A DNA stretch of 64,000 bases, taken from assembly GCF_025999835.1 (NCBI RefSeq), contig NZ_AP025628.1:1550001-1614000 (forward strand), read 5' to 3'. The notes beneath the pieces were generated by a model that saw only the letters and a list, made by a program, of their open reading frames with translations, did not search any database and was not told the origin of the DNA. Of the stretch, positions 19,278 to 64,000 are shown piece by piece. This DNA is from Caldinitratiruptor microaerophilus. Lineage in GTDB: Bacteria; Bacillota; Sulfobacillia; Symbiobacteriales; ZC4RG38. Both the position numbers and the translations under genes were made by a program. How positions within the stretch are numbered: position 1 is the first letter of the stretch; every line of letters starts with the position of its first letter.

Positions 19278-19288
19278 GCCGTCACCTC

Positions 19289-20173: not shown

Positions 20174-20202
20174 CGGTCACTCCCTCCCCTGCGCGGCCCC
20201 GA

Positions 20203-23253: not shown

Positions 23254-23333
23254 CCGCCCTACCTCCCCTCCCGGGAATCCTCTCTCTACCCGATCGGCCA
23301 CCGGGCCTGCGCCCGATGGTCACTTTCTCATCC

Positions 23334-29179: not shown

Positions 29180-29231
29180 GCTGCGCGTCCTCCCTTTCCG
29201 GCGGCTGCCCCGTGGGTCCCCTCCGCCGCCG

Positions 29232-30924: not shown

Positions 30925-30925
30925 G

Positions 30926-31798: not shown

Positions 31799-31824
31799 TG
31801 CGGCACCTCCTGGGACGACGAACC

Positions 31825-31858
31825 GGGGCCGGCACGCGGGCCGGGGACGGCCGGCCCC
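31825..31858 (-). terminator. Hairpin between livJ and livH, probable partial terminator
   Basis: Perfect 9-base arms GGGGCCGGC (31825-31833) and GCCGGCCCC (31850-31858) lie in the 87-base gap after the binding-protein gene. Such hairpins commonly allow more binding protein than permease to be made. No T-run follows. Confidence 0.5.
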
Positions 31859-31885
31859 GCCCCCGGCCCGCGCCCCTCACCCCGT

Positions 31886-33193
31886 TCAGCGCTTGTTCTG
31901 CGGCGGATAGGTCACGTCGGCCGCCGGCACGACGGTGATCCGGTCGAGGATGGCGAACGGGTACTGGTCGGTGTGCTTGGTGTAGCCCCAGACGAGGTCC
32001 TCGAAGACCTGGTGGTCCTCGGGGCGGATCGTCTTCTTGCCCTCCGGAGCGTCGAAGGAGAGGCCCTCGAGCGCCTTGACCACGGCGTCGGCGTCGGTGG
32101 TGCCGGCCTTCTCGACCGCCGCCTTGTACATGTAGAGCGCCGCATAGCCTTCCTGGGCCACGTAATCCGGGTACTCCTTGAAGCGCTCGTAGTACGCCTT
32201 CACGAAGTTCTTGTTCCGCTCGGTCTCCGGGTACAGGAACCAGTAGCGGGTGGAGACCAGCAGGTTCTCGGGCATGTCCTTGCCCAGCGGGACCAGGACC
32301 GAAAGCGAGGCGCCGACGGGGTCGACGAAGAGCTTCACCTTGTCGAAGAAGCCGAAGCCCTTCGCCTGCCGGATGAAGGTCACCAGGTCGCCGCCCCAGA
32401 TCACCGAGAAGACGGCCTCGGGCTGGGCGTTCAGGATGGACGTGATGTGGCTGGTGTAGTCGGGGGCGTTGAAGGGCGGCCAGGCCTCGCCCACGACCTC
32501 CACGTCGGGCTTGAGCTGCTTCAGCCGGGTGATGAAGTCCTGCCATGAGACGCGCCCGAACTCGTAGTCAGGCCCGATGTTGGCCCAGCGCTTGTAAGGC
32601 AGCTTCGCGGCGAGGGCCGCCGCGGCCCATGCGTCCATCCGGGCGTCGTTGTTCACCCGGAACACGTACGGGTTCCAGGCCTCGCCCACCAGCTTCGGGG
32701 TGGCGGCGTGGGTGACCAGCAGGGGCTTCTTCAGCTCGCCGACCACCTGGGCGACGTTGAGGACGCTGGAGCTGGAGTCGACCCCGATGAGGGCGTCCAC
32801 CTTCTCGTCCAGGATGAGGCGCCGGGCCTCCTGGGCCGCCACGTCCGGCTTGCCCTGCTCGTCGATCACCTTCACCTCGACCGGCCGGCCGAGGATGCCG
32901 CCCTGCTTGTTGATCTCTTCGGCGGCGAACTGGAGCCCCTGGCTGCCCGCCTTGCCGTAGAGCGCCAGGCGGCCGGAAAGGATGTACAGGGCGCCGATCT
33001 TGATCGGCTGGGCCTGCTGCTGGCCGCCCCCCGCGCCGCCACCCGACGGCTGGGCGGCCGCCGGCTGCTGCTGTGCACCGCCCGCGGGCTGGGAAGACGT
33101 CCCCGCCCCTTGCCCACCGCAGCCGGCCGCCAGGGCCACCAGCCCCAGCGCCAGCACGAGGGCCAGCCGGCGCGTCAGACCTGTTCGAGACAC
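31886..33193 (-). CDS. livJ: LIV-type substrate-binding lipoprotein
   Basis: 435 residues with a lipoprotein signal (lipobox LAAGC, Cys25) and a proline/glutamine/glycine-rich linker. A periplasmic-binding-protein fold starts at IKIGALYILSGRLALYGKAGSQGL. GTG 33193 has GGGGAGGT 6 bases upstream. The family binds amino acids but also aromatic acids and short amides; the ligand cannot be told from sequence. Being co-transcribed with a CoA ligase and AbfD, it may import a carboxylic acid used by those enzymes. Confidence 0.9.
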   Translation of the reverse strand: MSRTGLTRRLALVLALGLVALAAGCGGQGAGTSSQPAGGAQQQPAAAQPSGGGAGGGQQQAQPIKIGALYILSGRLALYGKAGSQGLQFAAEEINKQGGILGRPVEVKVIDEQGKPDVAAQEARRLILDEKVDALIGVDSSSSVLNVAQVVGELKKPLLVTHAATPKLVGEAWNPYVFRVNNDARMDAWAAAALAAKLPYKRWANIGPDYEFGRVSWQDFITRLKQLKPDVEVVGEAWPPFNAPDYTSHITSILNAQPEAVFSVIWGGDLVTFIRQAKGFGFFDKVKLFVDPVGASLSVLVPLGKDMPENLLVSTRYWFLYPETERNKNFVKAYYERFKEYPDYVAQEGYAALYMYKAAVEKAGTTDADAVVKALEGLSFDAPEGKKTIRPEDHQVFEDLVWGYTKHTDQYPFAILDRITVVPAADVTYPPQNKR

Positions 33194-33242
33194 TTCGCGA
33201 CCTCCCCTTTCTTCGCTGTGCCTGCGCGGGGCGCAGGCCGGT

Positions 33243-34586
33243 CTACGCATCGCCCGCGCCGGCCGCCGGTCCGGCCGCCGCCAGGCGTACGACCCGCTTG
33301 GCCTTGAACTCGGTGCGCTGCAGGGTCCCCGCCGGCACGAGGCGCACGTCGGGGGTGACCAGGCACTCCTGCTTGAGCCGGGCCCGGAGCCTCTCGGACA
33401 CCTGCGCGGGGTCTCCGGCGCCCGGCAGGATCTCGGCCACGACCGTACAGCGCTCCACCATGCCGCCGGAGCCCGCCACCTCGATGCGGTACTCGTCGGT
33501 CAGCTCGGGGAGCGAGCGCACCGCGTTCTCCACGTTGCTGGGGTAGAACTTGGCGCCCCGGTACACGATCATGTCGTCGTGCCGGCCCAGGATCCCGCCG
33601 GGCGAGCGGGCGTGGGTCCGGCCGCAGGCGCACGGCTCGGGGTCGAGCCGGGCGTAGTCGTTCGTCCAGTAGCGGAGCATCGGGGTCGCTTCCCGGGTGA
33701 GGTGGGTGATCACCAGGACCCCGACCTCCCCGGGGCGGACCGGCTCCATCGTGGCGGGGTCGATGACCTCGATCAGGTGGTGGTCCTCGCTCCAGTGCAG
33801 GCCGGCCTGGGCCGTGCACTCGGAGGCGAAGGTCGGCCCGATCTCGGCCAGCCCGTAGTAGTCGTACGCGGCCCCGCCGAGCCGGGCCTCGAGCTTCGCC
33901 CGGGTGGCCGGCGCCTCGGTGCCGGCCTCGCCCCCCAGGGCGACCGCCTTCAGGTGCAGGTCTTCCGGGCCGATCCCGGCCTCGGCCAACTTCTCGGCGA
34001 TGTACAGGCCGTACGAGGGCGTCGCGGTCAGGACCGTCGACCGGGCGCGGGTGAGGAAGTCGATCTGCCGGTCCGTGAGCTGCGCCCCGATCGGGATGAC
34101 CAGCGCCCCCAGCCGCCGGCCGGCGTAGTGGACGGCCATCCCGGCCACCCAGAGGCCGTAGCTGAAGGCGTTCTGGATGACGTCCCCCGGCCGCGTCCCG
34201 AAAGACCAGAGGGTGCGGGCGGTGAACTCGGTGATGTTGCGGATGTCGTTCTCGCTCCAGATCGTCAGGACCGGCGCGCCGGTGGTCCCCGACGAGGGGT
34301 GGATCTCCCGCCACGTCTCCGGGGGCGCCACGGTGAAGCGGCCGTACGGGGGGTGCGCCGCCTGCTCGTCCCGCAGCTCCTGCTTGGTCACGAAGGGGAT
34401 GCGGCGGATGTCGTCCAGGGTGCGGATGTCCTCCGGCCGCACCCCCGCCCGGTCCATCCGCTCGCGGTAGAACGCCGAGCCCTCGTAACAGCGGCGCACC
34501 TGCCACCGCAGGCGCTCGAGCTGGAGCCGGCGCAGCTCCTCCCGCGGCATCGTCTCGATCTCGGGGTGGAGGAAGGCGCGTTCCAC
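33243..34586 (-). CDS. PaaK-type acyl/aryl-CoA ligase
   Basis: 447-residue adenylate-forming enzyme of the phenylacetate-CoA ligase type. The ATP loop SSGTTGAPVLTIW, YDYYGLAEIGPTFASEC, the hinge GRHDDMIVYRGAKFYPSNVE and the C-terminal lysine region RTEFKAKRVVRL are present. GTG 34586 has GGAGGT 9 bases upstream. No other phenylacetate (paa) genes are near, so the true substrate may be another acid, possibly 4-hydroxybutyrate given abfD in the same unit; that is conjecture. Confidence 0.88.
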   Translation of the reverse strand: MERAFLHPEIETMPREELRRLQLERLRWQVRRCYEGSAFYRERMDRAGVRPEDIRTLDDIRRIPFVTKQELRDEQAAHPPYGRFTVAPPETWREIHPSSGTTGAPVLTIWSENDIRNITEFTARTLWSFGTRPGDVIQNAFSYGLWVAGMAVHYAGRRLGALVIPIGAQLTDRQIDFLTRARSTVLTATPSYGLYIAEKLAEAGIGPEDLHLKAVALGGEAGTEAPATRAKLEARLGGAAYDYYGLAEIGPTFASECTAQAGLHWSEDHHLIEVIDPATMEPVRPGEVGVLVITHLTREATPMLRYWTNDYARLDPEPCACGRTHARSPGGILGRHDDMIVYRGAKFYPSNVENAVRSLPELTDEYRIEVAGSGGMVERCTVVAEILPGAGDPAQVSERLRARLKQECLVTPDVRLVPAGTLQRTEFKAKRVVRLAAAGPAAGAGDA

Positions 34587-34605
34587 CCGGCCGACACCTC
34601 CCACA

Positions 34606-35193
34606 TCAGGATCGGAGGCCCTGGAGGATCAGGCTGCTGAACATCTCGCCGACCTGCCGGGGCGTCAGGGGCCCGTCCGGACGCAGCCACTGGTAGGTCC
34701 AGTTGCACATGCCGAAGATGGCGAAGGTGACGATGCGCGGGTCGAGGTCCTGGCGGAACTCGCCGCTCCGCATGCCCTCCTCGACCAGTTCCCGCACCAG
34801 GGCCTCGTACCGGTCGCGCTTCTGCTTCACCAACGCGAACTTTTCCGATGACAGGGAGCGCCTTTCCTCGAAGAAGACGGTGACATGCGGACGGTACAGG
34901 GCGATGCTCTCCACCAGGTCCACGATGACCTGCCGGAGCCGTTCGGCCGCCGGGCCGGGCTGGCTACGGACCGCCTCGCCCCGCTCGAGTTCGTAGGTGA
35001 TGAAGGTCTCGTGGATGAGGTAGAGGAGGTCGTCCTTGCTGGCGAAGTGGTGGTAGAACCCACCCTTGCTGCAGTTGGCGGCGGTGATGATGTCCTGGAG
35101 GGAGGTGGAATGGTACCCCTTCTCGAGGAAGAGCTGGAGGGCTGCGCTCACGATCTGGTTTCGCAGCGACTCGGCAGCCGTCTGCAGACCCAT
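34606..35193 (-). CDS. TetR/AcrR family regulator of the CoA-ligase/LIV/abfD unit
   Basis: 195 residues. The N-terminal helix-turn-helix reads AALQLFLEKGYHSTSLQDIITAANCSKGGFYHHFASKDDLLYLI; the C-terminal half has the ligand domain of the FadR/PaaR type. It is the first gene of the unit and lies about 40 bases from a palindrome that suits it as operator, so autorepression relieved by an acyl-CoA is likely. The Shine-Dalgarno sequence touches ATG 35193, an unusually short spacing. Confidence 0.88.
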   Translation of the reverse strand: MGLQTAAESLRNQIVSAALQLFLEKGYHSTSLQDIITAANCSKGGFYHHFASKDDLLYLIHETFITYELERGEAVRSQPGPAAERLRQVIVDLVESIALYRPHVTVFFEERRSLSSEKFALVKQKRDRYEALVRELVEEGMRSGEFRQDLDPRIVTFAIFGMCNWTYQWLRPDGPLTPRQVGEMFSSLILQGLRS

Positions 35194-49625: not shown

Positions 49626-50840
49626 TCAGAACCTCGTGGGAACCAGGCTCGACTCGACCGTGATCCGGTTGCGCTGCCCCCCGGCGTCCTGGACCGTGAA
49701 CACCCCGGCCACCGACATCTGCGACTGCTGCACCGGGATGAGCTTCTCGTCCTCCCAGGCCGGGTCCTGGATCGATACCTTGAACCGCTTCGTCTCCCCG
49801 GGTCCCACCGTGCCTTCCGGCTCCACCGCAAACAAGTGCGGGTACCCGGGGTCGGCCGTCGCCCGGTTCACGAAGGTCAGGTTCGATGTGGTGAACTCGA
49901 CCAGACGGACGGGCTCGTTCCCCAGGTTCGTCACCTCAACCTCCATGGCCAGCGTGTCCGTATCGGGATCGTACGTGGCCGCCGTTGCCCTGGCCTCGGC
50001 AAAGCGCAAGGGCTGGGCGATCTCCGGTGGCTCGAACCGGATGACCTGCTGGGGGATCCGCACCGGGAAGGCCCGCTGGATGTACATCCAACCGGCGGCA
50101 AGGAGAACGACCGCCAGGAGAGCCACCACGTTGACGAACCGGTGATCGGCCTTCGTGATGAGGCCGACAGCCGCGCCGTCGTCGTTGATCGGCAGTTGGC
50201 TCGTGACCGCTAGCCGCGTCACCGTCGGCTTCGGCCCGGTCCAGTACCACATCCACCATAGCCCCAGGACGAGGCCGAAGAGGGCCCACCCCACCACGAA
50301 CCCGGTCTGGTAGCGCTCCAGGTCCACGGTCCTGCCGTCGAAGAGCGTCACCAGGTTCCGGAATCCGCCCGCCGCCTCCTGCACCGTGATCCACTGCCCC
50401 GGCCCCAGGAGCGAACCGGCGCCCTCGATGGCAAGCACCGGGTGCACGTGCCACTGGCCCGGCCGGCGCCCTTCGACCGTCATCCGGAACTCGTAGACCC
50501 CACCCTTCCGGACGAAGATCGAGCCGGGCGCCGGCTTGCCGTTCACGATCCTCTCCTTCATCACCACCACCGGACCCGGCGCCACCACGCCCAGGTACGC
50601 CACCTCGGGCTCCGGTAGCGTAGGCGGCCAGGTCTCCAGGATCTTCGCCGTGCCCGTGATGGTCAGGGACTCGCCCTGCTTCACCGTGTCCGCGGAGAAC
50701 CTCACGTCGAAGAAGGCGACGGTCTTCTGCCTCAGGAATGCCTCCTGAGCGCGCTCGCCGTGGGCGAACACGCCCGAGGTCAGTCCCACCGAGAGCCCGA
50801 TGGCCAGGGCGAACGTGAAAAGAAGCCGCTTCATTCTCAT
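49626..50840 (-). CDS. pmoB: Copper membrane monooxygenase subunit B (PmoB/AmoB/HmoB-like)
   Basis: 404 residues: signal peptide cleaved at FA|HG, an N-terminal cupredoxin domain, two membrane helices (about 182-204 and 240-258) and a C-terminal cupredoxin domain ending SSLVPTRF. The CuB ligands are all present: H27 as first residue of the mature protein (HGERAQEAFLRQKTVAFFD), and H131 and H133 in WHVHP. They correspond, six positions earlier, to H33, H137 and H139 of Methylococcus. The start overlaps the stop of the small ORF (ATGA). It is the last gene of the C-A-x-B operon, with a hairpin after it. This order differs from C-A-B by the inserted gene. Confidence 0.95.
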   Translation of the reverse strand: MRMKRLLFTFALAIGLSVGLTSGVFAHGERAQEAFLRQKTVAFFDVRFSADTVKQGESLTITGTAKILETWPPTLPEPEVAYLGVVAPGPVVVMKERIVNGKPAPGSIFVRKGGVYEFRMTVEGRRPGQWHVHPVLAIEGAGSLLGPGQWITVQEAAGGFRNLVTLFDGRTVDLERYQTGFVVGWALFGLVLGLWWMWYWTGPKPTVTRLAVTSQLPINDDGAAVGLITKADHRFVNVVALLAVVLLAAGWMYIQRAFPVRIPQQVIRFEPPEIAQPLRFAEARATAATYDPDTDTLAMEVEVTNLGNEPVRLVEFTTSNLTFVNRATADPGYPHLFAVEPEGTVGPGETKRFKVSIQDPAWEDEKLIPVQQSQMSVAGVFTVQDAGGQRNRITVESSLVPTRF

Positions 50841-51116: not shown

Positions 51117-51881
51117 CTATACCTGCTTCAGGAACCTGCGGATGGGCCAGACGGCCAGGTAACGGCCGATGAACTGGCCAACCCAGTACCCGGCGATCGC
51201 CAGCGTAGCGCCGAAGGCGAAGGCGACGTACTGGGCCTCCTGCAGGAAGGTGCGCAGCGACCCGTGCTCGATGACGCGCAGGTATTCCGGGGTCTGCATT
51301 CGGAGATAAGCGATGCCCTGGACGTCCGCAAGAGTGACGACGTGCCCCATGAACTGCACGGGTTGCAGGAAGGGCGCCAGCGGAACATAGTTGCCCACCC
51401 ACAGGGCGAGGGTCCACACCATCCCGCCGATCAGGGAGGTGAGCACGAAGCTCCGGGTCTTCAGGAGGATCCAGTCCATCAGGATCCCGGCCAGGATGGT
51501 CGACTGCGGCCACACGAAGTTGAGCGGATAGGAAACGAGGACCTTCCACTGCAGCCACCGGCCGATCCACGAAGCGAGGAACAGGCACACGGACGTATAG
51601 GTGGCGCCCGTGGGGAACCGCCACGCCGCCCACTGGATGTACTGGAGCGCCGACGGAATGATGATCATGGCAAAGGGCGTGATGGTCATCCACCACTGCC
51701 GGTCCTTCCAGTCCGTCCACATGTCCCAGTCGCCCGCGAACAGGAGCTTCGTGATGTCCGCGGCGGCCGCCACCACGAACGCCGCGGTGACCCAGAAGAC
51801 GAGATCCCACTTGCGGTCGATGAACCGGTACTTCTTGTTCACGAGCTGCCGGAGCTCTTCCACCCGCGCGACCGTCGCCAC
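51117..51881 (-). CDS. pmoA: Copper membrane monooxygenase subunit A (PmoA/AmoA/HmoA-like)
   Basis: 254 residues, about seven membrane helices. The universal primer region GDWDMWTDWKDRQWWMTITP is present. Family stretches YPLNFVWPQSTILAGILMDWILL, ADVQGIAYLRMQTPEYLRVIEHGSLRTF and the IGR-containing end also align by eye with PmoA. GTG 51881 is chosen because GGAGGAGG lies 7 bases upstream and the size then equals known PmoA (about 247). The local pattern reminds me of Gram-positive hydrocarbon monooxygenases more than of ammonia monooxygenase, but a tree is needed. Confidence 0.95.
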   Translation of the reverse strand: MATVARVEELRQLVNKKYRFIDRKWDLVFWVTAAFVVAAAADITKLLFAGDWDMWTDWKDRQWWMTITPFAMIIIPSALQYIQWAAWRFPTGATYTSVCLFLASWIGRWLQWKVLVSYPLNFVWPQSTILAGILMDWILLKTRSFVLTSLIGGMVWTLALWVGNYVPLAPFLQPVQFMGHVVTLADVQGIAYLRMQTPEYLRVIEHGSLRTFLQEAQYVAFAFGATLAIAGYWVGQFIGRYLAVWPIRRFLKQV

Positions 51882-51920
51882 ACCGCTCCCTCCTCCACAT
51901 CCAAGACTCATCTTGATCGT

Positions 51921-51959
51921 GCGGCCCTGCCGGCGCCACGCGGACGGCGGCAGGGCCGC
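51921..51959 (-). promoter_or_regulatory. Stable hairpin between pmoC and pmoA
   Basis: Perfect 12-base arms GCGGCCCTGCCG (51921-51932) and CGGCAGGGCCGC (51948-51959) with a 15-base loop, 12 bases after the pmoC stop. There is no T-run, so it more likely protects or processes the pmoC message than terminates it; similar hairpins follow amoC in nitrifiers. Confidence 0.7.
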
Positions 51960-51971
51960 AACCACAGGGGG

Positions 51972-52775
51972 TCAGCTGGCCGCCCCCACCTCAGTGGGCA
52001 TCTCGATCTCCTTCTCGATCTGGTACAGACGGATGATCGTCTCGGCCCACAGGGCGAAGATGCCGCCCGCCAGCCACCCGTACGTCACGAACGGCCAGTG
52101 GAAGGGGGCCGCGAAGAACTCCTCCGCCCACCACAGGCTGTGGCCCCATTCGTTGAACGCCACCTGCAGCATCTCGGTGACCGAGGCGGCGATGAGGAAG
52201 GCGAAGGACCAGGGGAACCCCCTGGACGGGCCGTACACAGCTGGCAGACGCGTACGGCCGTAGAGGTAGGTGCCGATGCTGAACGTGATGCCGAGGGGGA
52301 ATGCCATGTAGAACATCACCACGTGCGGCGGCGTGATTGCCGTGTCACGGACCACGGTCTGGTGCCACGCACCGTCCTGGTTCGGGAAGAAGCTGGCCAT
52401 GAAGTAAAGGATGAGGCTCGTGATCCCCACGAGGCCCCAGAAGGTGGCGATCCGGCGCACCTCCTCCCGGGCGTCGACCTTCTCCGCGGCCAGCGCCCGG
52501 CCCGACTTGACGAGCCACCCCCACCAGAGGCCGGTGAACGCACCCACAGACAGGATCTCCGCGACGAACAGGCTACGCCAGTACAGGGTGAAGTCGTAGC
52601 TGGCGGAGTCGAGCCCGGCGGTCCAGAACCGGAGCACGTACAGCTCGAGCCCCAGGAAGAGCGCCAGCACGGCGGCGTAGCCCCACAGGAGGGTCCGCCA
52701 GCCACCGAGCCAGTCCGTCGGGCCGTATCGCTCGGAAACCACCCGCCGTTCCTTCACGGATGCCAGGGTTGCCAT
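51972..52775 (-). CDS. pmoC: Copper membrane monooxygenase subunit C (PmoC/AmoC/HmoC-like)
   Basis: 267 residues with about six membrane helices. The CuC/CuD ligand pattern is complete: D134, H138 and H151 (D-x3-H-x12-H, in PNQDGAWHQT and TPPHVVMFYMAFPLG) match D156, H160 and H173 of Methylococcus PmoC, and N208 and H212 (FNEWGHSLWWAEE) match N227 and H231. The segment FAAPFHWPFVTYGW is also conserved. A GGAGGAGGAGG site precedes ATG 52775. It is the first of the monooxygenase genes, 157 bases after the alcohol dehydrogenase gene. Confidence 0.95.
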   Translation of the reverse strand: MATLASVKERRVVSERYGPTDWLGGWRTLLWGYAAVLALFLGLELYVLRFWTAGLDSASYDFTLYWRSLFVAEILSVGAFTGLWWGWLVKSGRALAAEKVDAREEVRRIATFWGLVGITSLILYFMASFFPNQDGAWHQTVVRDTAITPPHVVMFYMAFPLGITFSIGTYLYGRTRLPAVYGPSRGFPWSFAFLIAASVTEMLQVAFNEWGHSLWWAEEFFAAPFHWPFVTYGWLAGGIFALWAETIIRLYQIEKEIEMPTEVGAAS

Positions 52776-52932: not shown

Positions 52933-53976
52933 TCACGGGACCAGGACCGCCCGTCCCTTGACGCGGCCGCCGTGGAGGTCGGCGATAGCCTGGTTCACCT
53001 GGTCCAGGCGGTAGTGCACCGTAGCAAGACGCACCCGGCCCTCACCCGCCAGGGTCATGAGCTCCACGAGGTCCGTGTAGGTGCCCACCAGGTTCCCGAC
53101 GATGTTCTTCTCGCTGAAGATCATGTCGATCGCGGGCACCCGGATCGTTCCCCCGTACCCGATCACGAAGTAGTAGCCCGCGTTCCTCGTCATGGCGAGC
53201 CCCTGTTCGATGGAGCCTCCCTCCCCCACGAAGTCCAGCACGGCCTGCGCGCCCCTTCCGCCGGTGAGGTCGAGAACCTCGCGGACGGCGTCGTCGCCGC
53301 CCTTGACCCGGTACTCCGCCCCGAGCTCCTGGGCAAGGCTCAGGGCCAGGTCGGAGCGGTCGACCACGATGATCCGGGCGGGCGACAGGGTCCGCAGCAC
53401 CTGGAAGGCGATGTGCCCCAGGCCGCCCATGCCGATGATCACCGCGTGGTCGCCCGGCTCGAGCACCCTCACCGCCTTCTTGGCCGCGTGGTAGGCCGTG
53501 AGGCCGGCGTCGGCGTGCGGGGCGACCTCCCTGGGCTCCACTCCGTCGGGCAGGCGGACGAGGTTGCGCTCCTTGACCAGCAGGTACTGGGCGAAGCCCC
53601 CGTCCCGGTTGATGCCGGGGAACACGCCGTTCTCGCAGTGCATGTCGTTGCCCCGGCGGCAGGCCGGGCAGACGCCGTCGGTGATGAGGGGGTGGACGAT
53701 CACCGGGTCGCCCCGCCGGAAGCGGCGCACCCCGCGCCCCACCTCCTCCACCCAGCCGGCGTTCTCGTGGCCGAGGATGTAGGGCAGGTCGACCTCGACC
53801 TTGCCCCGCCAGATGCCCTCGATGATGTGCAGGTCCGTGCGGCAGAGCCCGGCGCCACCGATGCGGATGATCACGTCGTCGGGCTCCTGGATCTCGGGGT
53901 CGGGCACCTCTTCCACCTTCAGGAACTCGGGCCCCCGGAACTCCGGATCGTATTCGTACAGCCTGGCGGCCTTCAC
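52933..53976 (-). CDS. Zinc-dependent alcohol dehydrogenase of the monooxygenase operon
   Basis: 347-residue medium-chain dehydrogenase. Catalytic-zinc region GGAGLCRTDLHIIEG and GHENAGWVEEVG; structural-zinc lobe CPACRRGNDMHC with the first of four usual Cys replaced by Asp; NAD loop VIIGMGGLGHIAFQVL followed by VVDRSD. It should oxidise the alcohol released by the monooxygenase. The start is 6 bases after the DUF59 gene. In actinobacterial soluble propane monooxygenase clusters a similar gene follows the same two accessory genes (from memory). Confidence 0.92.
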   Translation of the reverse strand: MKAARLYEYDPEFRGPEFLKVEEVPDPEIQEPDDVIIRIGGAGLCRTDLHIIEGIWRGKVEVDLPYILGHENAGWVEEVGRGVRRFRRGDPVIVHPLITDGVCPACRRGNDMHCENGVFPGINRDGGFAQYLLVKERNLVRLPDGVEPREVAPHADAGLTAYHAAKKAVRVLEPGDHAVIIGMGGLGHIAFQVLRTLSPARIIVVDRSDLALSLAQELGAEYRVKGGDDAVREVLDLTGGRGAQAVLDFVGEGGSIEQGLAMTRNAGYYFVIGYGGTIRVPAIDMIFSEKNIVGNLVGTYTDLVELMTLAGEGRVRLATVHYRLDQVNQAIADLHGGRVKGRAVLVP

Positions 53977-53982
53977 GCGGCA

Positions 53983-54699
53983 TCACCTCGGTTGGACAGT
54001 CTCGGGTTCGGCGGACCCGTATCGCGTCCGGAGCAGCCCCTGGCAGAACTGGGCGTTGAACTCCATGCTGATGCGGGTGCGCCGGGCCTCCCGGAGCACA
54101 TCCCGGAGCTGCGCGGGGTTCAGCAGTAGCCCGTTCTCCCGCGTGAAGGCCGGGGCGGTGGGGAGATCCTCCAGGCCCATCTCGCGGCAGATGCCAAGGT
54201 ACCGGTCCACCAGGTCGCCCGCTTCCGCGTCGCTTTCCGCGAGGCGGCGAAGGTCGGCTACGCACATCGCCACGATCTCGTCGTCGGACAGCCCCCGGCG
54301 GATGAGGAGGCGGACAAGGCGCTCCTGGCGGGCGAGGAAGGCCTTGAGGCGGAACAGCCAGCGCAGGTCCTCCAGGTTCCCGTCGGCGAGGCCCGAGAAG
54401 GCGGCGCCAAAAGGTCTGCCGGTCGCCACCCCGGCGTTCACCTCATCGGCTGCGAAGTGGTCCTCCAGCCGGACCTGCACCTCGGATACCCACGGCAGCT
54501 CCCGGACCCGGTCCCGGATATCTTCGGCCATGATGTAAGCGAAGTTCGGCGAGCACCAGTACGTGGGCAGGCGGAACCGGACACGCACCACGGGGCCGTC
54601 GACGTCCACCCCGCTGATGAACCCGAGGTCCGTGACAGGGCGGTCGAGCTCCGGGTCGTAAACCTGCTGGAGCCGGGCGTAGACCTCCTCCACTCGCAT
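53983..54699 (-). CDS. DUF59/MIP18-type metal-sulfur assembly protein
   Basis: 238 residues. An N-terminal DUF59 domain (EEVYARLQQVYDPELDRPVTDLGFI, LPTYWCSPNFAYIMAEDIRDRV) is joined to a helical C-terminal half. DUF59 proteins (SufT, PaaD, Cia2) help load metals or Fe-S clusters. In propane monooxygenase clusters the same fused type occurs, so it probably supports the monooxygenase or dehydrogenase. ATG 54699 has AGGGGGGAC upstream; the longer frame has no matching N-terminus. Confidence 0.85.
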   Translation of the reverse strand: MRVEEVYARLQQVYDPELDRPVTDLGFISGVDVDGPVVRVRFRLPTYWCSPNFAYIMAEDIRDRVRELPWVSEVQVRLEDHFAADEVNAGVATGRPFGAAFSGLADGNLEDLRWLFRLKAFLARQERLVRLLIRRGLSDDEIVAMCVADLRRLAESDAEAGDLVDRYLGICREMGLEDLPTAPAFTRENGLLLNPAQLRDVLREARRTRISMEFNAQFCQGLLRTRYGSAEPETVQPR

Positions 54700-54719
54700 C
54701 CGCGTCCCCCCTGGCGGCC

Positions 54720-55742
54720 TCACGCCATCATGGCGGCGACCGCGTCCCCCTGAAGCCGGGCCCTGTGAGCGGCGATGTCGATCCCGTAGAGTCGGGCGGC
54801 GTTCTCGCCCAGGATCTTCTTCTTCGCGGCGAGGGTCAGGTCGACCCCGGTCTCCTCCCTCAGGTCCTCCGGAAGCTCGAAGGCCATGAACTTCTCGATG
54901 ATCCACCGCGGCGTCCATATCGCGTAGTCGCTGCCGAAGAGGAGCCTGTCCTCGCCCACCCACCACAGTAGCTCGGCCATGACCTCCGCGAAGTACCGCG
55001 GCCGGGCGTGGACGAACGGCATCACGACAGCCAGCCCGCCGTAAACGTTCTTCTCCTGCGTCGCGATCCAGCAGAAGTCTTCGAGCCGCGGCAGACCGCA
55101 GTGGTCGACGATGAAGTTGAGGTCCGGAAAGGCGGTCGCCACCTCGTCCACATCGTGCACGTCGAAGGCGTCCTTGTTGAGCGGCCAGACCGTCGGGCCC
55201 TTGTGCACGTGGATGTTCGTGATGCCAAGCTGGCGGCACTTCTCGAGGTAGCGGATGGCCCAGGGGTCGGTGAGCCGCCAGCCCTTGGAGTCACCGCGCC
55301 ACTCCGCGGTGTAAAGCTTCACGCCCTTGATGTGGTAGCGCGAGGCCAGGAACTCCAGGTACTCCAGCCCCCGCTCCCCGTCCCGGGGGTCCCAGGCACC
55401 GTTGAGGATGAAGCGGTCCGGGTACATCTCCTTCAGGACTGCGTTCTGCTCGGTCGTGTTGAAGCCGCTGCGGAAGAACTCCTTGAGGTACGTCGGCTGG
55501 AAGATCCCGATGTCTACATAGCCCTCCACGAAGAGGTCGTGGACCATCTGCTGCGGTGTGTACTTGCGGAATTTCTCGATGGGCCAGATCGCTTCCCTCG
55601 GGCTGAGGTTGCGATGGTAATCGTAGAAGCAGTTGATCCACCCCGTGCCGTACTGGTTCGCCTGGTTCTCGGGCGAGCCGTCCCACAGATGCACGTGGGC
55701 GTCGATGACGAAGATCTCCCCGCCGTCTGGTGTGCGGAACAC
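54720..55742 (-). CDS. Amidohydrolase-2 family protein of the alkane monooxygenase accessory set
   Basis: 340-residue TIM-barrel hydrolase. FVIDAHVHLWDG (H-x-H), NCFYDYHRNLSPREAIWP, GIFQPTYLKEF, NIHVHKGPTVWPLNKDAFDVHDVDEVA, VDHCGLPRLEDFCWIATQEKNVYGGLAV and FGSDYAIWTPRWIIEKF. Nearly every block matches the metal-dependent hydrolase I remember from mim/prm propane monooxygenase clusters of actinobacteria, where it is thought to help assemble the oxygenase. GTG 55742 has GGGAGGT 7 bases before it; a longer frame to 55805 lacks such support. Confidence 0.9.
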   Translation of the reverse strand: MFRTPDGGEIFVIDAHVHLWDGSPENQANQYGTGWINCFYDYHRNLSPREAIWPIEKFRKYTPQQMVHDLFVEGYVDIGIFQPTYLKEFFRSGFNTTEQNAVLKEMYPDRFILNGAWDPRDGERGLEYLEFLASRYHIKGVKLYTAEWRGDSKGWRLTDPWAIRYLEKCRQLGITNIHVHKGPTVWPLNKDAFDVHDVDEVATAFPDLNFIVDHCGLPRLEDFCWIATQEKNVYGGLAVVMPFVHARPRYFAEVMAELLWWVGEDRLLFGSDYAIWTPRWIIEKFMAFELPEDLREETGVDLTLAAKKKILGENAARLYGIDIAAHRARLQGDAVAAMMA

Positions 55743-55813
55743 GTCAGGCACCTCCCAGCAGAGTAAGACAGGAACCCATGGTCGCCAGGCCGGAAACCGG
55801 GACACCGTCCCCG

Positions 55814-56374
55814 TCAGACCGGCACTCGTTCACCGCGCACCATGCGGACGAACTCGCGCAGGAGCGCGGGATGGTCCGGCCAGGCGCGGGCCGACACCAG
55901 GTTGCCGTCCACGACGGCCTCCTGGTCGACGAACGTACCGCCCGCCGCCTCGACGTCGGGCTTGAGGGCCCAATACGCCGCCATCTTCCTGCCCTTCACC
56001 ACCCCCGCGGCAACGAGTACCAGGGCGGCATGGCAGATCGCGCCGACGGGCTTCTGGTTCTCGAAGAAGTGGCGCACGATCTCCAGGGCACCGGGTTCGT
56101 TGCGGATCCACTCGGGTGCCCTGCCGCCCACCAGGTACAGGGCGTCGTAGTCTGCAGGCCTGACCTCTAAGAAGCCGAGATCGGCCTGCACCCGGTAGCC
56201 GGGCTTCTCCGTGTAGGTCTCCATGTCGGGTTCGAAGTCGTGCACCACCGTTTGCAAAACCTTCTTGCGCGGCGCCGCGACGTGAACCTCGAAGCCCTCC
56301 TCCCTGAGCCGCTGAAGCGGGTACATCGTCTCCAGGGCTTCGGCGCCGTCCCCGGCCATCAGCAGTACCTTCAC
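55814..56374 (-). CDS. DJ-1/PfpI family protein
   Basis: 186 residues. The nucleophile elbow VGAICHAALVLVAAGVVKG carries the catalytic Cys, with the usual upstream Glu likely in GDGAEALETMYPL. LYLVGGRAPEWIRNEPGALEIVRHFF is also typical. Members act as proteases, deglycases or glyoxalases; here protection from reactive aldehydes would make sense, but that is inferred. Its GTG start overlaps the iclR stop (GTGA), so the two are co-translated. Confidence 0.88.
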   Translation of the reverse strand: MKVLLMAGDGAEALETMYPLQRLREEGFEVHVAAPRKKVLQTVVHDFEPDMETYTEKPGYRVQADLGFLEVRPADYDALYLVGGRAPEWIRNEPGALEIVRHFFENQKPVGAICHAALVLVAAGVVKGRKMAAYWALKPDVEAAGGTFVDQEAVVDGNLVSARAWPDHPALLREFVRMVRGERVPV

Positions 56375-57168
56375 GCGACTTCACCTCCGGACGGTCCGAT
56401 GGTCTGGAAAACCACCTTGCGGAGAATCCCCGCAAGCCTTCGTCCCTCGACCTGAAACCGTCTTGGCGTCACCGCGATCCCCATCGCGCCAGCCACTGTC
56501 TCGCCGCCGTCCCGGGCCAGTACAGGCGCCGCCAGGCAGCAGATCCCCTCCTGATACTCCTCCCGGTCCACGGCCAGACCCGTCCGGCGGACCCGTGCCA
56601 GCTCGGCTCGGAGCCGCTCCGGGTCGGTAATGGTGCGCGGCGTGAAGCCCCTCAGGCCCAGGAGGCGTATGTAAGTGTGCAGGGCGGTGTCGGAGAGGTG
56701 CGCCAGCAGGATCTTGCCCACCGCGAGGGCGTGCGCCTCGCCGCGGATTTCACGGCCCATCCGCAGCCCAGGCTGACCTTGGTGCCCCTGCACCGCCTCG
56801 ACCAGCGCCGCCTGTCCGTCGTACACGACGAGGTAGGCCCGGCAGCCGGTGGCTCTGTTGAGGTCCCGCAAAGCGTCGCGGAGGACCGGCAACGGACAGG
56901 AGCCGGATGGCCTGACCGGGGACAGGAGGTCTTCCCGGAACGCGCTGACGTAGTGACGACCGTCTGCGGGGCTCCGGTAAGCGAATCCTTCCTGGCAGAG
57001 GCTGTTCAGGAGGTAATAGGCCGTGTGGGGGCTCTTGCCCAGATGCTGGGCCACCTCGGCAGGGGTGACGCCGGCGGGATGGTCCGCCAGGTAGGAGAGC
57101 ACCCTCAGCACCGCTCTCGCCGTGCTCAGGGCCCGCTGACGCCCCGGATCCGTCGGAACGCGGGGCAC
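56371..57168 (-). CDS. IclR family transcriptional regulator
   Basis: 265 residues with an N-terminal winged helix (TPAEVAQHLGKSPHTAYYLLNSLCQEGFAYR) and a C-terminal effector domain (GEAHALAVGKILLAHLSD, YQEGICCLAAPVLA). GTG 57168 is preferred: GGGAGGT lies 7 bases upstream, whereas GTG 57177 would sit inside that site. A perfect palindrome at 57207-57220 lies about 40 bases upstream and could be its operator. It is the first gene after the sigma-54 promoter, so it may add negative or ligand control to the operon. Confidence 0.88.
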   Translation of the reverse strand: MPRVPTDPGRQRALSTARAVLRVLSYLADHPAGVTPAEVAQHLGKSPHTAYYLLNSLCQEGFAYRSPADGRHYVSAFREDLLSPVRPSGSCPLPVLRDALRDLNRATGCRAYLVVYDGQAALVEAVQGHQGQPGLRMGREIRGEAHALAVGKILLAHLSDTALHTYIRLLGLRGFTPRTITDPERLRAELARVRRTGLAVDREEYQEGICCLAAPVLARDGGETVAGAMGIAVTPRRFQVEGRRLAGILRKVVFQTIGPSGGEVA

Positions 57169-57206
57169 GGTGTCCACCTCCCGAACCCCTCGGGATCGAG
57201 TTCAGT

Positions 57207-57372: not shown

Positions 57373-57390
57373 ATGCAAAGCCCGTGCCGG
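57373..57390 (-). promoter_or_regulatory. Sigma-54 (-24/-12) promoter of the alkane monooxygenase operon
   Basis: The minus strand reads CCGGCACGGGCTTTGCAT: GGCACG at -24 and TTTGCA at -12, with exactly 10 bases between GG and GC. Only the first T of TGGCACG differs from consensus. Expected start of transcription is near 57363, about 195 bases before iclR. Half of an 8-bp hairpin (57381-57402) overlaps the -24 box and could also end the activator transcript. Confidence 0.85.
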
Positions 57391-57528: not shown

Positions 57529-59523
57529 TCATGATAGTTTTCGGTAGATGGTGCTCCGGTGGATGCCCAGTCTCCGGGCGGCAGCCGTCACGTTCCCACC
57601 CGACTCGGAGAGAGCGACCCGGATGAGCTCCCGCTCCTGTTCTTCAAGGGTACCCACATCCGAGCGAACCGGCAGAGACAGGGACCGAGTCCTGCGAACC
57701 GCCGGCCCAGCCGGCGCGGGGTGGGTTGCCGGGGGGCCAGGCGCGGCGAACCGGTCCCGGCTCGCGGCGTATACCTCCGGGGGCAGGTGCTCGGGCCGCA
57801 CGACCGGACCATCGACCTGGAGGGCCAAACGATACGCGACGTTGCGCAGCTCCCGAACGTTGCCCGGCCACGGGTACTCCCAGAGAAGGGCCAGGGCCTC
57901 CGAACTCACGTGGAGCGGCGGCCGGGCCAGCTCCTCGCACGCGCGGCGGAGGAAGTGGTCGAGGAGGAGGGGGATGTCGTCCCGGCGCTCGCGCAAGGGG
58001 GGCAGGGTGAGGCACACCACCGACAGCCGGTAGAACAGGTCTTTCCGGAAAGTACCCTCCCGCATGGCCTTCTCCAGATCCCGGCTCGTCGCTGCGATCA
58101 CCCGGATGTCCAGCCGGATGGGGGCACGCCCGCCGATGCGGACGACCTCGCGTTCCTCCAGCACCCGCAACAGGTGTACCTGGGCGTCGGGCGGCATCTC
58201 GCCGATCTCGTCGAGAAAGATGGTACCGCCACGCGCCAGCTCGAACTTGCCAGGCTTTCCCTCCCGGCTGGCACCCGTGAAGCTGCCGGGATCATACCCG
58301 AAGAACTCGCTGGCAACGAGTTCGCGCGGGATTGCCCCGCAGTTCACGGCCACAAACGGTCCGTGGGCGCGGGAACTCGCCGCGTGAATGGCCTGGGCGA
58401 GCCGCTCCTTGCCGGTTCCGCTTTCCCCGAGAATGAGCACTGGAAGCGAATGGGCGGCAGCCTGTTGCCCGGTCAGGATCACGCGGCGGAATGCCTCGGA
58501 CTGACCCATCAGTTCCTCGAACCGGCACCGGGGCAGAGCCTTGGTCCCGCTGCCGCGCCCACTCACCGCACCTGCCCGCATCAGCGCGCCGACTACCCGG
58601 CCGCCCTGGATGACGGCACGGAGCTCACACCGGTACCGGCCTCGCCGGCCCTCCACATCCCACTCCACTGCCGATCCCAGTTCCAGCCACCGGTTCGCCT
58701 CCGGCAACCCGAACGGTCGGCCGTTCGGATCCAGAAGTCCCTCCTCCATGAGCGCGTCCGAACCGGCGAGGACCCGGCCGCCCCGGTCCAGGGCCGCCAG
58801 CACCTCCTGTGCCTGTCTACGGGCGGAGGAATAGGCCGCGATGACCGCCGCTCGTTCCCACTCGGCTTCCCTGTGCAGTTCGCCTTCGACGGCCCGGGCC
58901 ACGGACGTCACCAGCACCAGGGAGTGGGGATGCACCGCCGCGAACGGCCCCGTGAGATCGATCACGCCGAGCAGAGACCCGGTCACCGGATCGCGCACGG
59001 GGGCGGCCGAACACGTCCAGGAGTGGACGATCTGGCACCAGTGTTCGGCGGCGAAGATCTGCACCGGCAGGCCCGTGGCCAGCGCGGTGCCGATCGCGTT
59101 CGTGCCGGCGGTCGCCTCGGCCCAGCGGGCGCCCGGCACGAAGTTCATCCTCTCAGCCCGCCGGCGGACCAGGCGATCCCCCTCGACCGACAGGAGCAGG
59201 CCGGACGCGTCGGCGATTACCACGAGGTGGCCAGAGTCGGCAGACGCGGCCTTCATCTCATCGAGCCAGGGCTGAGCGACCTGCAGGAGCCTGTCGTACC
59301 GGCAACTCCGGGCGATCTCCTCCTGGGATGCCACAATGGGGGCACGATGGTTCAGTGGGTGCACGCCGCCGCTCCGGCACCGGGTCCACGATGCAGCTAC
59401 GACCTCGCGGACGCGTTCGGCGCCCCCTTCACCTGACACAAATCGCTCCCAGAGACCTTCGAGCACTTTGTTGTGGCGCTTGGGACTGGTGTAGATGTCG
59501 ATGGCGATGTTCGGGTTCCGCAC
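57529..59523 (-). CDS. Sigma-54-dependent activator, AcoR/MimR type
   Basis: 664 residues. N-terminal GAF-type sensor (ATAGTNAIGTALATGLPVQIFAAEHWC, LLGVIDLTGPF), a central AAA+ domain with Walker A GESGTGKERLA, the sigma-contact loop GSFTGA (usually GAFTGA), Walker B GTIFLDEIGEMP and the arginine fingers in FRKDLFYRLSV. A Fis-type helix-turn-helix ends the protein (GGNVTAAARRLGIHRSTIYRKL). It lies directly upstream of paired repeats and a sigma-54 promoter, so it very likely activates the whole iclR-to-pmoB operon when it senses the substrate or its alcohol. Confidence 0.93.
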   Translation of the reverse strand: MRNPNIAIDIYTSPKRHNKVLEGLWERFVSGEGGAERVREVVAASWTRCRSGGVHPLNHRAPIVASQEEIARSCRYDRLLQVAQPWLDEMKAASADSGHLVVIADASGLLLSVEGDRLVRRRAERMNFVPGARWAEATAGTNAIGTALATGLPVQIFAAEHWCQIVHSWTCSAAPVRDPVTGSLLGVIDLTGPFAAVHPHSLVLVTSVARAVEGELHREAEWERAAVIAAYSSARRQAQEVLAALDRGGRVLAGSDALMEEGLLDPNGRPFGLPEANRWLELGSAVEWDVEGRRGRYRCELRAVIQGGRVVGALMRAGAVSGRGSGTKALPRCRFEELMGQSEAFRRVILTGQQAAAHSLPVLILGESGTGKERLAQAIHAASSRAHGPFVAVNCGAIPRELVASEFFGYDPGSFTGASREGKPGKFELARGGTIFLDEIGEMPPDAQVHLLRVLEEREVVRIGGRAPIRLDIRVIAATSRDLEKAMREGTFRKDLFYRLSVVCLTLPPLRERRDDIPLLLDHFLRRACEELARPPLHVSSEALALLWEYPWPGNVRELRNVAYRLALQVDGPVVRPEHLPPEVYAASRDRFAAPGPPATHPAPAGPAVRRTRSLSLPVRSDVGTLEEQERELIRVALSESGGNVTAAARRLGIHRSTIYRKLS

Positions 59524-61726: not shown

Positions 61727-62359
61727 CTACCGCCCGATCCGTGCCGCTTGCAGGCACGCCGTGTCGCGTTCCAGTAGCGCCACCAGAACCTCCAGCAACG
61801 GAAGGTAGGGCCAGGGCACGTTCTCCCGCCTGGCATCCGCCAGGAGTCCCGGCACCCAGTCCAGGTGCTCGGTCAACATGCGAGCCTGGTCCTGTGGAGT
61901 GCCCCACCGGGCCAGAAGAGCCATGAACTCAAGCTCCAGCACCAGGTGGTCTGGGGTGCCCTGAAACTCCGGCGGGACCGTCACACCGGCAGCCCGGTAC
62001 AGTTCGGCCACGTGCAGGGCGTGGTCGCTGAGGAGAAACCCGGTTTCGCCCGCAAGCGAAGCCGCCTCCCCCCTTTGCGTCCATGGCCGGTAGCAGGACT
62101 CGACCGGGACGAGGAGCCCTCCGGGCCGTCCGAAGGTACGCTCCCACGCCTCCCGCAGGGGGAGCCTGTCGGCAGGCGGCTCGGTCAGGTCGGCCGGCGG
62201 CTGCATCCCCACCTCTGCGAGTGCGTCCGTCAGCTCCCGGATCAGGTCTCGAGGCGGCTGGTCGCCGGGCGGTGGGGCCATGAGCGCCGCAATCGCGCTG
62301 TACAGCCGGGCGCGGCTCGCCCTGCGGTCGCCGTGTCTGATCGTTCCCAGCGCCTCCAC
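61727..62359 (-). CDS. TorD/DmsD family molybdoenzyme chaperone
   Basis: 210-residue, all-helical protein. Typical blocks are PVESCYRPWT near residue 88, SDHALHVAELYRAAGV and TPDHLVLELEFMALL. Such chaperones bind the Tat signal of a molybdoenzyme until the cofactor is inserted. It is the last gene of the oxidoreductase operon encoded to the right, 6 bases after the cytochrome gene. GTG 62359 has GGAGG 9 bases upstream. Confidence 0.88.
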   Translation of the reverse strand: MEALGTIRHGDRRASRARLYSAIAALMAPPPGDQPPRDLIRELTDALAEVGMQPPADLTEPPADRLPLREAWERTFGRPGGLLVPVESCYRPWTQRGEAASLAGETGFLLSDHALHVAELYRAAGVTVPPEFQGTPDHLVLELEFMALLARWGTPQDQARMLTEHLDWVPGLLADARRENVPWPYLPLLEVLVALLERDTACLQAARIGR

Positions 62360-62365
62360 CCGGGC

Positions 62366-63064
62366 TCACCTCCCGGGCTCTGGACCGCCCGCGGCCCTTT
62401 CGCCCAACTGGATGAGGCTCTCGTACCACTTGCGGTGGTGGCTCCGGGCGAAATCGCGGCTCACCTTGCCCGTGATGATGCCGGAGAGGGCTGCCCGGCT
62501 CCCGGGGTGGCCGACCGCGAGGTAGATGTGCCCAAGGGCAGCGGCGCCGAGGAGGAAGGCGAACAAGGTGTGAATGGGTTGGGCCCACATGACGATCACC
62601 CTGGGGAGCACATCACGGTAGACGAGCATCCAGCCCGTGATCACCATCACGGGGTAACCGGCGATCTGAAGGAGCGAGTTGACCTTCTCACCGGCGTTGA
62701 ACTTGCCCTGTGGCGGGAGTTCGACGTGAAGACCGAAGAACTCCCGCGGAAAGAGGCGCAGGAACCGGCGGTCGTCGGCGTCCCAGGTGCAGCACTCCCG
62801 GAGCCACTCGCGCACGGCGGGCCGGGCTCCCAGGAGAAGGATGGGGACGGTCAGGAACGTGAAGGGCCACGCGGCCCAGCGGTGGATCTGGCCGAAGAGC
62901 CGAAGCGTGTCGGGACCTAGAAGGCCGGGGAGCCCCGACACCACCAGGGCAGCCCCCGTCACGAGAAGCACCAGGAACGTGATCGCGTGGTTCCAGTGCG
63001 CCAGGCGCTCGGCCAGGCTGAAACGAACCACCTCGTTGGATGCGCTCACCTCAGGCCCCTTCAT
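62366..63064 (-). CDS. Cytochrome b subunit of a molybdopterin oxidoreductase
   Basis: 232 residues, four membrane helices, related to FDH gamma subunits. Haem histidines are likely in RLAHWNHAITFLVLLVTG, FGQIHRWAAWPFTFL and LGHIYLAVGHPGS. GKFNAGEKVNSLLQIAGYPVMVITG matches the usual quinone-side loop. It overlaps the iron-sulfur gene by 14 bases. It should exchange electrons with the quinone pool. Confidence 0.88.
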   Translation of the reverse strand: MKGPEVSASNEVVRFSLAERLAHWNHAITFLVLLVTGAALVVSGLPGLLGPDTLRLFGQIHRWAAWPFTFLTVPILLLGARPAVREWLRECCTWDADDRRFLRLFPREFFGLHVELPPQGKFNAGEKVNSLLQIAGYPVMVITGWMLVYRDVLPRVIVMWAQPIHTLFAFLLGAAALGHIYLAVGHPGSRAALSGIITGKVSRDFARSHHRKWYESLIQLGERAAGGPEPGR

Positions 63065-63764
63065 GCTGCTTCCTCCTTTCCCGCAGGGCCCGGAGCCCGT
63101 GCACGGCGAGGCTCAGCGCCGCTGCCGAGGCCGCACCGGCCAACACGATCTGCCCCAGGGGTTGGATGACGCTCTGCCAAGGGTACAGGTAGCGCGGGGC
63201 CTCGAAGTCTGCAGGCAGGAGGTCGCGTTCCATGCCTTCGGGCAAGCGGTAGTAGAAGCTGGTGCCGGCCACCCGGATCACGTCAGCCTCACGGATCGCC
63301 CTGGCGATGGCACTCTCGGGGTCGTCCAGGTCCCCGAAGAGGCGCGCCCCACCGATGCAGGTGCGCACGCAGGCCGGCTCCCGCCCCTTCTGCAGGTCGG
63401 CATAGCAGAAGGAGCACTTCCGGACGATCTTCCGCTCCTCGTCGTAGGTGCGGGCGTCGTACGGGCAGGCCGTGACGCAGTACCGGCAGCCGATGCAGTC
63501 CTCCTCCCGCACGACCACCGGTCCCTCGGCGGTCTTGTACGTCGCGCCTGTCGGGCAGACCTCGGCGCACGGCGGTGCTTCGCAGTGCATGCACTGCGTG
63601 GTGACGAAGGTGCCCTTCAGGCTGGGGTACTCACCGGCCGTCGTGAGGTTCACCTTGGTGAACCGGTTCTCCGGCGCCAGCCCGTAACTGGCCTGGCAAG
63701 CCACCGTACAGGCGGAGCACCCGACACAGCGTTCGAGGTCGACGAACATGGCGTAGCGGCTCAT
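63051..63764 (-). CDS. 4Fe-4S electron-transfer subunit (PsrB/TtrB-like)
   Basis: 237 residues. Four cysteine groups: CVGCSACTVACQ, CMHCEAPPCAEVCP, CIGCRYCVTACP and CSFCYADLQKGREPACVRTC. A C-terminal membrane helix (PLGQIVLAGAASAAALSLAVHGL) anchors it. It lies 3 bases after the molybdopterin subunit. It resembles the beta subunits of polysulfide, thiosulfate or tetrathionate reductases more than FDH-N beta. Confidence 0.9.
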   Translation of the reverse strand: MSRYAMFVDLERCVGCSACTVACQASYGLAPENRFTKVNLTTAGEYPSLKGTFVTTQCMHCEAPPCAEVCPTGATYKTAEGPVVVREEDCIGCRYCVTACPYDARTYDEERKIVRKCSFCYADLQKGREPACVRTCIGGARLFGDLDDPESAIARAIREADVIRVAGTSFYYRLPEGMERDLLPADFEAPRYLYPWQSVIQPLGQIVLAGAASAAALSLAVHGLRALRERRKQHEGA

Positions 63765-63767
63765 GGA

Positions 63768-64000
63768 TCACCCACCTACCTTCCGGACCGTGACCACAAC
63801 CTCGCACTGGGCGGCAGCGCCAGAGATCGGCGCGACCCGAATGGGCACCAGACCGGAGTCGTTCGCGCCCTTCCCGTACGCGCGGCGCTGCGCCCTGGAG
63901 AGGCAGCCGAACCCGTGGGCCATCCACACGCAGTCCGGCCGGATCCCCGCGGTGACCTTCGCCCTGAGCCGCTCGCTCCCCGTGACCGACGCCACTTCCA
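63768..64000 (-). CDS. Molybdopterin oxidoreductase catalytic subunit, C-terminal fragment
   Basis: About 77 C-terminal residues before the stop at 63768; the rest lies beyond the window. IRPDCVWMAHGFG and RRAYGKGANDSGLVPIRVAPISGAAAQCEVVVTV fit the double-psi barrel end of PsrA/PhsA/TtrA-like enzymes. The substrate cannot be known from this part. With the iron-sulfur, cytochrome b and TorD genes it forms a complete respiratory oxidoreductase operon. Confidence 0.8.
   Translation of the reverse strand, partial: EVASVTGSERLRAKVTAGIRPDCVWMAHGFGCLSRAQRRAYGKGANDSGLVPIRVAPISGAAAQCEVVVTVRKVGG

Follow-up and report, generated by a model that had tools for sequence, protein, structure and literature searches.

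Results

A copper monooxygenase operon with genes of diiron monooxygenase clusters

We analysed a window of 64,000 nucleotides (contig positions 1550001-1614000) from Caldinitratiruptor microaerophilus JCM16183 (Bacillota_E, genome label G000), a microaerophilic, nitrate-reducing thermophile of French hot spring origin (PMC9933637), in which the genes of a copper membrane monooxygenase (CuMMO), pmoCAB, are preceded by genes for an amidohydrolase (AMH), a long DUF59 protein and a zinc-dependent alcohol dehydrogenase (ADH). All genes concerned lie on one strand (minus), in the transcription order GAF-sigma54 activator, IclR, DJ-1/PfpI, AMH, DUF59, ADH, pmoC, pmoA and pmoB, and the intergenic gaps from IclR through pmoB are -4, 71, 20, 6, 157, 6 and 276 bp (Table 1). 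The order amidohydrolase-DUF59-ADH before pmoC had been proposed in a first-pass annotation, and it was borne out with exact coordinates and matching Pfam families. An alternative start is possible for AMH upstream at 55805, and relatives place the true start of pmoA probably ~27 codons inside the called ORF.

Table 1 Genes and candidate promoter of the operon, in window positions
Feature	Position	Strand	Family or motif match
GAF-sigma54-Fis activator, AcoR-like, GTG start	57529..59523	-	PF01590, PF00158, PF02954
Candidate sigma54 -24/-12 promoter CGGCACGGGCTTTGCA	57374..57389	-	11/12 consensus positions
IclR-family regulator	56371..57177	-	PF01614, PF09339
DJ-1/PfpI family protein	55814..56374	-	PF01965; TIGR01382 above cut-off
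AMH, prm/mim accessory subfamily, GTG start	54720..55742	-	PF04909, E 2.3e-52
Long DUF59 protein	53983..54699	-	PF01883, E 1.3e-15
Zn-dependent medium-chain ADH	52933..53976	-	PF08240, PF00107
CuMMO subunit C (pmoC)	51972..52775	-	PF04896
CuMMO subunit A (pmoA)	51117..51965	-	PF02461
CuMMO subunit B (pmoB)	49626..50840	-	PF04744

By sequence, AMH and the long DUF59 protein belong to the same subfamilies as those encoded in the prm/mim clusters of group 5 soluble diiron monooxygenases (SDIMOs). AMH shared 56-69% identity, over nearly its full length, with the AMHs of 17 plasmids, compared with 34% for the next amidohydrolases, and a tblastn search of plasmids with the DUF59 protein returned 17 records (35-46% identity, nearly full length), all of them with a close AMH and several with the homologue adjoining an SDIMO. 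This gap in identity, together with the position of the pair beside prm/mim-type diiron genes, argues that the likeness is not due to chance. The nearest relative of AMH (75% identity) was found in a Bacillota metagenome-assembled genome (MAG).

Records of Bradyrhizobium, Caballeronia, Ponticoccus and Aminobacter carry SDIMO alpha, reductase, beta and coupling-protein genes followed by AMH-DUF59 and GroEL, while a Rhodococcus plasmid has, in a row, a hydroxylase alpha ORF, AMH, DUF59, ADH and GroEL. Published clusters of Gordonia and mycobacteria comprise an amidohydrolase, an unknown protein, ADH and GroEL (PMC6849523). These loci and layouts upheld the claim that the three genes are mim/prm neighbours, and close AMH and DUF59 homologues do adjoin prm/mim-type monooxygenase genes. 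The actinobacterial mim/prm clusters share with the window the order AMH-DUF59-ADH, and the proteobacterial ones a sigma54 activator with a -24/-12 promoter; however, they encode a soluble diiron oxygenase and GroEL, whereas the window has the membrane-bound copper enzyme, with DJ-1 and IclR added, and gave no match to a GroEL gene from 45 kb on. Prauserella aidingensis (L109) has two AMH-DUF59-ADH cassettes less than 8 kb apart on opposite strands, one directly after SDIMO genes. Two actinomycetotal loci (L153, L155) carry a remote DUF59-AMH pair in reversed order (~35% identity), a second, distant cassette family.

The cassette also occurs without any diiron enzyme

A profile scan of 85,000 species genomes returned at least 582 AMH relatives, from which the best 80 loci were retained and their flanks scored by tblastn, contig ends cutting some of them. 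SDIMO genes were present in the examined flank of 44/80 loci and in none of the flanks of the remaining 36. Of the 35 genomes that contain these SDIMO-free loci, 23 gave no SDIMO in whole-genome searches with PF02332, and neither did G000. These 23 genomes comprise several isolates (one a complete chromosome) and otherwise incomplete MAGs, and they include the isolates Paenibacillus validus, Thermogemmatispora carboxidivorans and Bacillus sp. PAMC26568. The claim that the accessory genes are specific to diiron oxygenase assembly is thus refuted by these loci and genomes, and by the interleaved trees described below: AMH and DUF59 form a constant pair with no set oxygenase partner.

By protein clustering, the recurrent neighbours at SDIMO-free loci were mainly DUF59, ADH, the sigma54 activator, DJ-1 and IclR. 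Free-standing cassettes of Bacilli, in which DJ-1/PfpI also flanks AMH-DUF59, resemble the window in their sigma54 activator, promoter, AMH, DUF59 and DJ-1, but have neither SDIMO nor CuMMO and, unlike the window, some continue with GlcD/GlcF-like genes. In the Bacilli loci L072, L085 and L108, a CdaR-like regulator and genes resembling GlcD/GlcF come after AMH-DUF59-DJ-1, the names CdaR and GlcD/GlcF coming from reading of the sequences and not from a family search.

The copper link recurs in other phyla

The link to a copper enzyme is no accident of one genome. CuMMO-A was found in 1/398 genomes of the window's phylum, namely G000, and in 3/301 Chloroflexota genomes, all three of which have DUF59-ADH-pmoC-A-B in the window order (L130, L131 and L132); L132 includes AMH, and the clusters of L130 and L131 stop at the contig end at that point. 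A wider search added L139-L143, of which L143 is complete (AMH-DUF59-ADH-C-A-B) and L141 (Actinomycetota) reads AMH-DUF59-C-A-B. Genome G1143 has C-A-B running from a contig end (L142) and sigma54 activator-AMH-DUF59-ADH reaching the end of another contig (L165). In G217, a separate contig (L068) ends with AMH and the start of DUF59, which runs off the edge, G676 has an AMH fragment at a contig edge, and the contig of L140 (Actinomycetota) begins 125 bp before pmoC. The proposal that propane-type accessory genes are attached to a copper enzyme therefore stands, with recurrence in Chloroflexota and Actinomycetota. The copper partner is nevertheless rare, since a CuMMO was present in only 2/52 cassette-bearing genomes tested, G217 and G228, and in G228 the cassette and an ordinary actinobacterial-type CuMMO occur unlinked in one genome.

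A conserved membrane-protein-like ORF (~98 aa) lies right after pmoB in L131 (7490-7786), L142 (2812-3111) and L143 (6988-7284) and matched no family of Pfam or NCBIfam; the small ORF that L132 has at that position is a different one. The record of L068, titled Proteobacteria bacterium, groups in the phylum of Thermogemmatispora (Chloroflexota), and its title is probably wrong.

Trees do not sort the accessory genes by oxygenase

The nine CuMMOs formed one clade (100/100), apart from the actinobacterial hydrocarbon monooxygenases (HMOs) and a pxm-like operon; in this tree, built with a small reference set, the clade of the window CuMMO stands beside the actinobacterial HMOs. We compared AMH, DUF59 and ADH across oxygenase settings, as the first-pass annotation had suggested. 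In none of the three trees did the sequences separate by oxygenase; copies linked to an SDIMO, linked to a CuMMO or free-standing were interspersed, a pattern that would be expected of a module passing between oxygenases. The AMH tree (69 rows) required 10 setting changes, compared with 25.9 under shuffled labels (0/200 shuffles as low). CuMMO-linked AMHs fell in three places, namely a Chloroflexota clade (100/98), a row inside a mostly actinomycetotal clade (99/93) and the window, whose AMH stood, with weak support (85/78), next to free-standing copies from Chloroflexota and Thermomicrobia. A single clade of CuMMO-linked AMHs was mildly rejected (p-AU 0.026, a guide only, as the tested set was chosen after the first tree). 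In quick trees, the window DUF59 grouped with free-standing Bacillota copies (93) and the window ADH joined a clade (99) of 18 rows, 16 of them SDIMO-linked.

The trees indicate that the CuMMO and its helper genes do not have one common history, and the descent of AMH seems to track the host lineage more closely than the oxygenase. A direct origin of AMH and DUF59 from a diiron cluster was dropped, their nearest rows being free-standing; for ADH such an origin is kept open by its placement. Of the suggestion that a cassette was swapped between unrelated oxygenases, the sharing holds, and the interleaving agrees with mobility, but a direct source in a diiron cluster is unneeded, because the cassette is not confined to them.

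A candidate sigma54 promoter recurs across the three settings

The candidate sigma54 site lies inside the 351-bp gap before IclR and is oriented toward the operon; its score was matched by 0.2% of mononucleotide shuffles of this region, which preserve base composition alone. Sites matching 11/12 positions were also found before free-standing cassettes of Peribacillus, Domibacillus and Paenibacillus, and 11-12/12 sites before SDIMO operons of Bradyrhizobium, Caballeronia and an Acetobacteraceae MAG, so that an activator with a -24/-12 site was seen in CuMMO-linked, SDIMO-linked and free-standing settings alike. The window-wide count of sites was not above chance (11 vs 7.6), and we therefore place weight only on the location of the site and its recurrence across loci. 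Scanning gave no clear site for some other cassettes and no good site directly before pmoC. Homologues of the activator beside the free-standing cassettes L023, L060 and L092 had 43-46% identity, and the one at L165, by the cassette of CuMMO-bearing G1143, had 29%. BmoR, the sigma54 regulator of a butane SDIMO, is responsive to alcohols (PMC8784404).

Features of the encoded proteins

Its three subunits, C-A-B order and copper ligands place the enzyme in the CuMMO superfamily. The ligand motifs of PmoC (DGAWH-x12-H and NEWGH-x13-H) and PmoB (HGE..Q..F and WHVH) are retained in the window and kept in its relatives, with an insertion inside the second PmoC motif in L131, L142 and L143 (CuD site; NEWGHSVNLGNAGAEEFFAVWFH), and PmoA was 69-77% identical to same-clade relatives. 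All subunits scored below the cut-offs of the NCBIfam AMO/pMMO models (A 208.8/290, B 307.4/336, C 184.3/319 bits), and G000 had no TIGR03075 match above cut-off for a pyrroloquinoline quinone (PQQ)-dependent alcohol or methanol dehydrogenase. A short alkane or ketone is the likely substrate. HMO homologues with C-A-B order and copper ligands were already reported in 2025 from the same phyla (Bacillota_E and Chloroflexota) and from archaea, in a paper whose main text does not mention an amidohydrolase (PMC12533140). The actinobacterial HMOs, from which the window clade is separate, have mdo, MoxR and AMP-binding protein genes as plasmid neighbours.

The best PDB match of ADH was 1h2b, an Aeropyrum ADH (1e-102), followed by secondary ADHs of Rhodococcus ruber (about 1e-57), a resemblance that suggests a secondary-alcohol type. 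AMH yielded an AlphaFold model of pLDDT 93.8. Fold comparison ranked first the TIM-barrel protein 3irs, which is uncharacterised (272 residues aligned at rmsd 2.8, Z 27.3); next came decarboxylases, with Z about 22, and other amidohydrolases, and ARO structures stood lower. D14 and H16 are invariant in 40 AMH sequences and H18 is variable; the three residues after D272 are Y-A-I in the window and Y-[AG]-[IL] or alike elsewhere, with no His at +3. The DUF59 protein consists of a DUF59 head domain, which matches 2cu6/1uwd, and a mostly helical C-terminal tail of ~150 residues (model pLDDT 94.3) that found no clear match in the PDB fold search.

Elsewhere in the window, two formate-dehydrogenase-like sets (molybdopterin, 4Fe-4S and cytochrome b subunits) lie at 18561-23301 and 61727-64000; ~2 kb separates one of them from the gene of the sigma54 activator, with opposite-strand panB/panC-like genes between, and positions 28469-35193 hold a row of branched-chain-type ABC transporter genes, an AMP-binding ligase and a TetR-like gene.

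Discussion

We propose that the genes from IclR through pmoB act as a single catabolic module, induced through sigma54, that handles a short-chain (~C3) alkane and/or the corresponding alcohol and ketone; we consider this reading reasonably, though not strongly, probable. The GAF-sigma54 activator would sense substrate or product and fire the candidate -24/-12 promoter found upstream; the CuMMO would hydroxylate the substrate, for instance turning propane into 2-propanol or acetone into acetol; and the ADH, zinc-dependent by family, would oxidise the resulting alcohol. AMH would most likely be a metal-dependent enzyme that converts an intermediate further down the pathway, with DUF59 serving its metal or cofactor, while DJ-1 may handle methylglyoxal and similar reactive aldehydes. 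Such a module would take a diiron monooxygenase, a copper monooxygenase or neither and, since it accepts diiron enzymes or has no oxygenase at all, would have been assembled more than once. We advance more tentatively the fuller version, in which AMH-DUF59 is an uncharacterised enzyme system for a shared downstream step in short-chain alcohol or ketone metabolism, does not depend on the oxygenase and has been recruited by both oxygenases under the same sigma54 control, and the CuMMO clade is C3-specialised across three phyla.

Several observations weigh against this proposal. Locus L139 (G785, Actinomycetota) is a true exception, having a CuMMO of the same clade and full flanks but no adjacent cassette; G785 carries a separate, more divergent AMH-DUF59-ADH elsewhere in its genome (L166). 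The sample behind the copper link is small, with several contigs ending inside the cluster, and two Chloroflexota relatives have no clear sigma54 site upstream of AMH. Comparison of AMH with PDB sequences found no close relative, characterised or not. DUF59 domains, moreover, are classically metal-cluster assembly factors.

This last point favours the view that AMH and DUF59 are assembly factors delivering metal to, or maturing, whichever oxygenase is present, as do the closeness of the DUF59 fold to Fe-S assembly proteins (2cu6, 1uwd, FAM96A), the matches to SufT/PaaD models and the SDIMO operons that place the pair directly before GroEL, a known oxygenase folding factor (PMC6849523). Yet many genomes have the pair with neither SDIMO nor CuMMO, and copper and diiron sites share little assembly chemistry. 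In addition, an amidohydrolase-like protein of the Mim cluster made up 3.2% of the proteome of an actinobacterium grown on 2-hydroxyisobutyrate (PMC7176365), an abundance that is high for an assembly factor and so speaks against that role. We regard assembly as unlikely and favour a metabolic role for AMH-DUF59 with a somewhat better than even chance. A further reading, in which AMH itself is an O2-dependent dinuclear ARO-type oxygenase (AibH2, SfbO, PtmU3), could draw on the Pfam family that it shares with these enzymes, on SfbO and DitZ among its fold matches and on the invariant D14/H16 with variable H18, which by motif, not structure, resemble the D25/H27 ligand pair of AibH2 (PMC7782822). 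However, AMH lacks the His that AibH2 has three residues after its last metal-binding Asp (H340 after D337; PMC7782822), its best fold matches are not oxygenases, and the window operon genes include no adjacent Rieske protein, which ARO systems would be expected to have; this reading is the most improbable of those weighed here.

Within the catabolic module we propose, the substrate may be a ketone: the CuMMO would then be a PMO3-like acetone monooxygenase and the module would serve 2-propanol and acetone, not alkanes, a sub-case that is possible but doubtful. PMO3 (pmoCAB3) of Methylacidiphilum, a C3 precedent for a CuMMO, converts acetone to acetol (PMC8630023), as does the Mim diiron enzyme (PMC7176365); the ADH is of secondary-alcohol type, and the DJ-1 by the cassette, with the GlcD/GlcF-like genes of Bacilli, could take methylglyoxal onward. 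PMO3 likewise sits within a C3-substrate gene cluster, although, as described, that cluster has a GMC oxidoreductase, glyoxalase, lactate dehydrogenase and pmoD, with AMH-DUF59-ADH unreported there, whereas the window cluster is without the GMC oxidoreductase and lactate dehydrogenase; characterised HMOs, moreover, use C2-C4 alkanes. Far less probable is plain methanotrophy, in which the CuMMO would be a methane monooxygenase with the cassette incidental. The complete copper ligands and the formate-dehydrogenase-like genes within the window would suit it, but the lack of a PQQ alcohol dehydrogenase match above cut-off, the sub-threshold subunit scores and the recurrent linkage of the cassette all argue otherwise.

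Our search of the open-access literature found no report linking the AMH-DUF59-ADH cassette to a CuMMO, and an earlier report is possible. The same accessory cassette and the same kind of promoter accompany two unrelated C-H oxidisers, a membrane-bound copper enzyme and a soluble diiron enzyme; the helper genes thus probably belong to a metabolic pathway and not to one kind of oxygenase, which moves two orphan genes of propane and acetone clusters from "oxygenase maturation" toward metabolism. We know of no characterised C3 CuMMO from thermophilic Bacillota or Chloroflexota, and the cassette offers a candidate genomic marker for CuMMOs in these organisms that act on C3 compounds, not on methane or ammonia.

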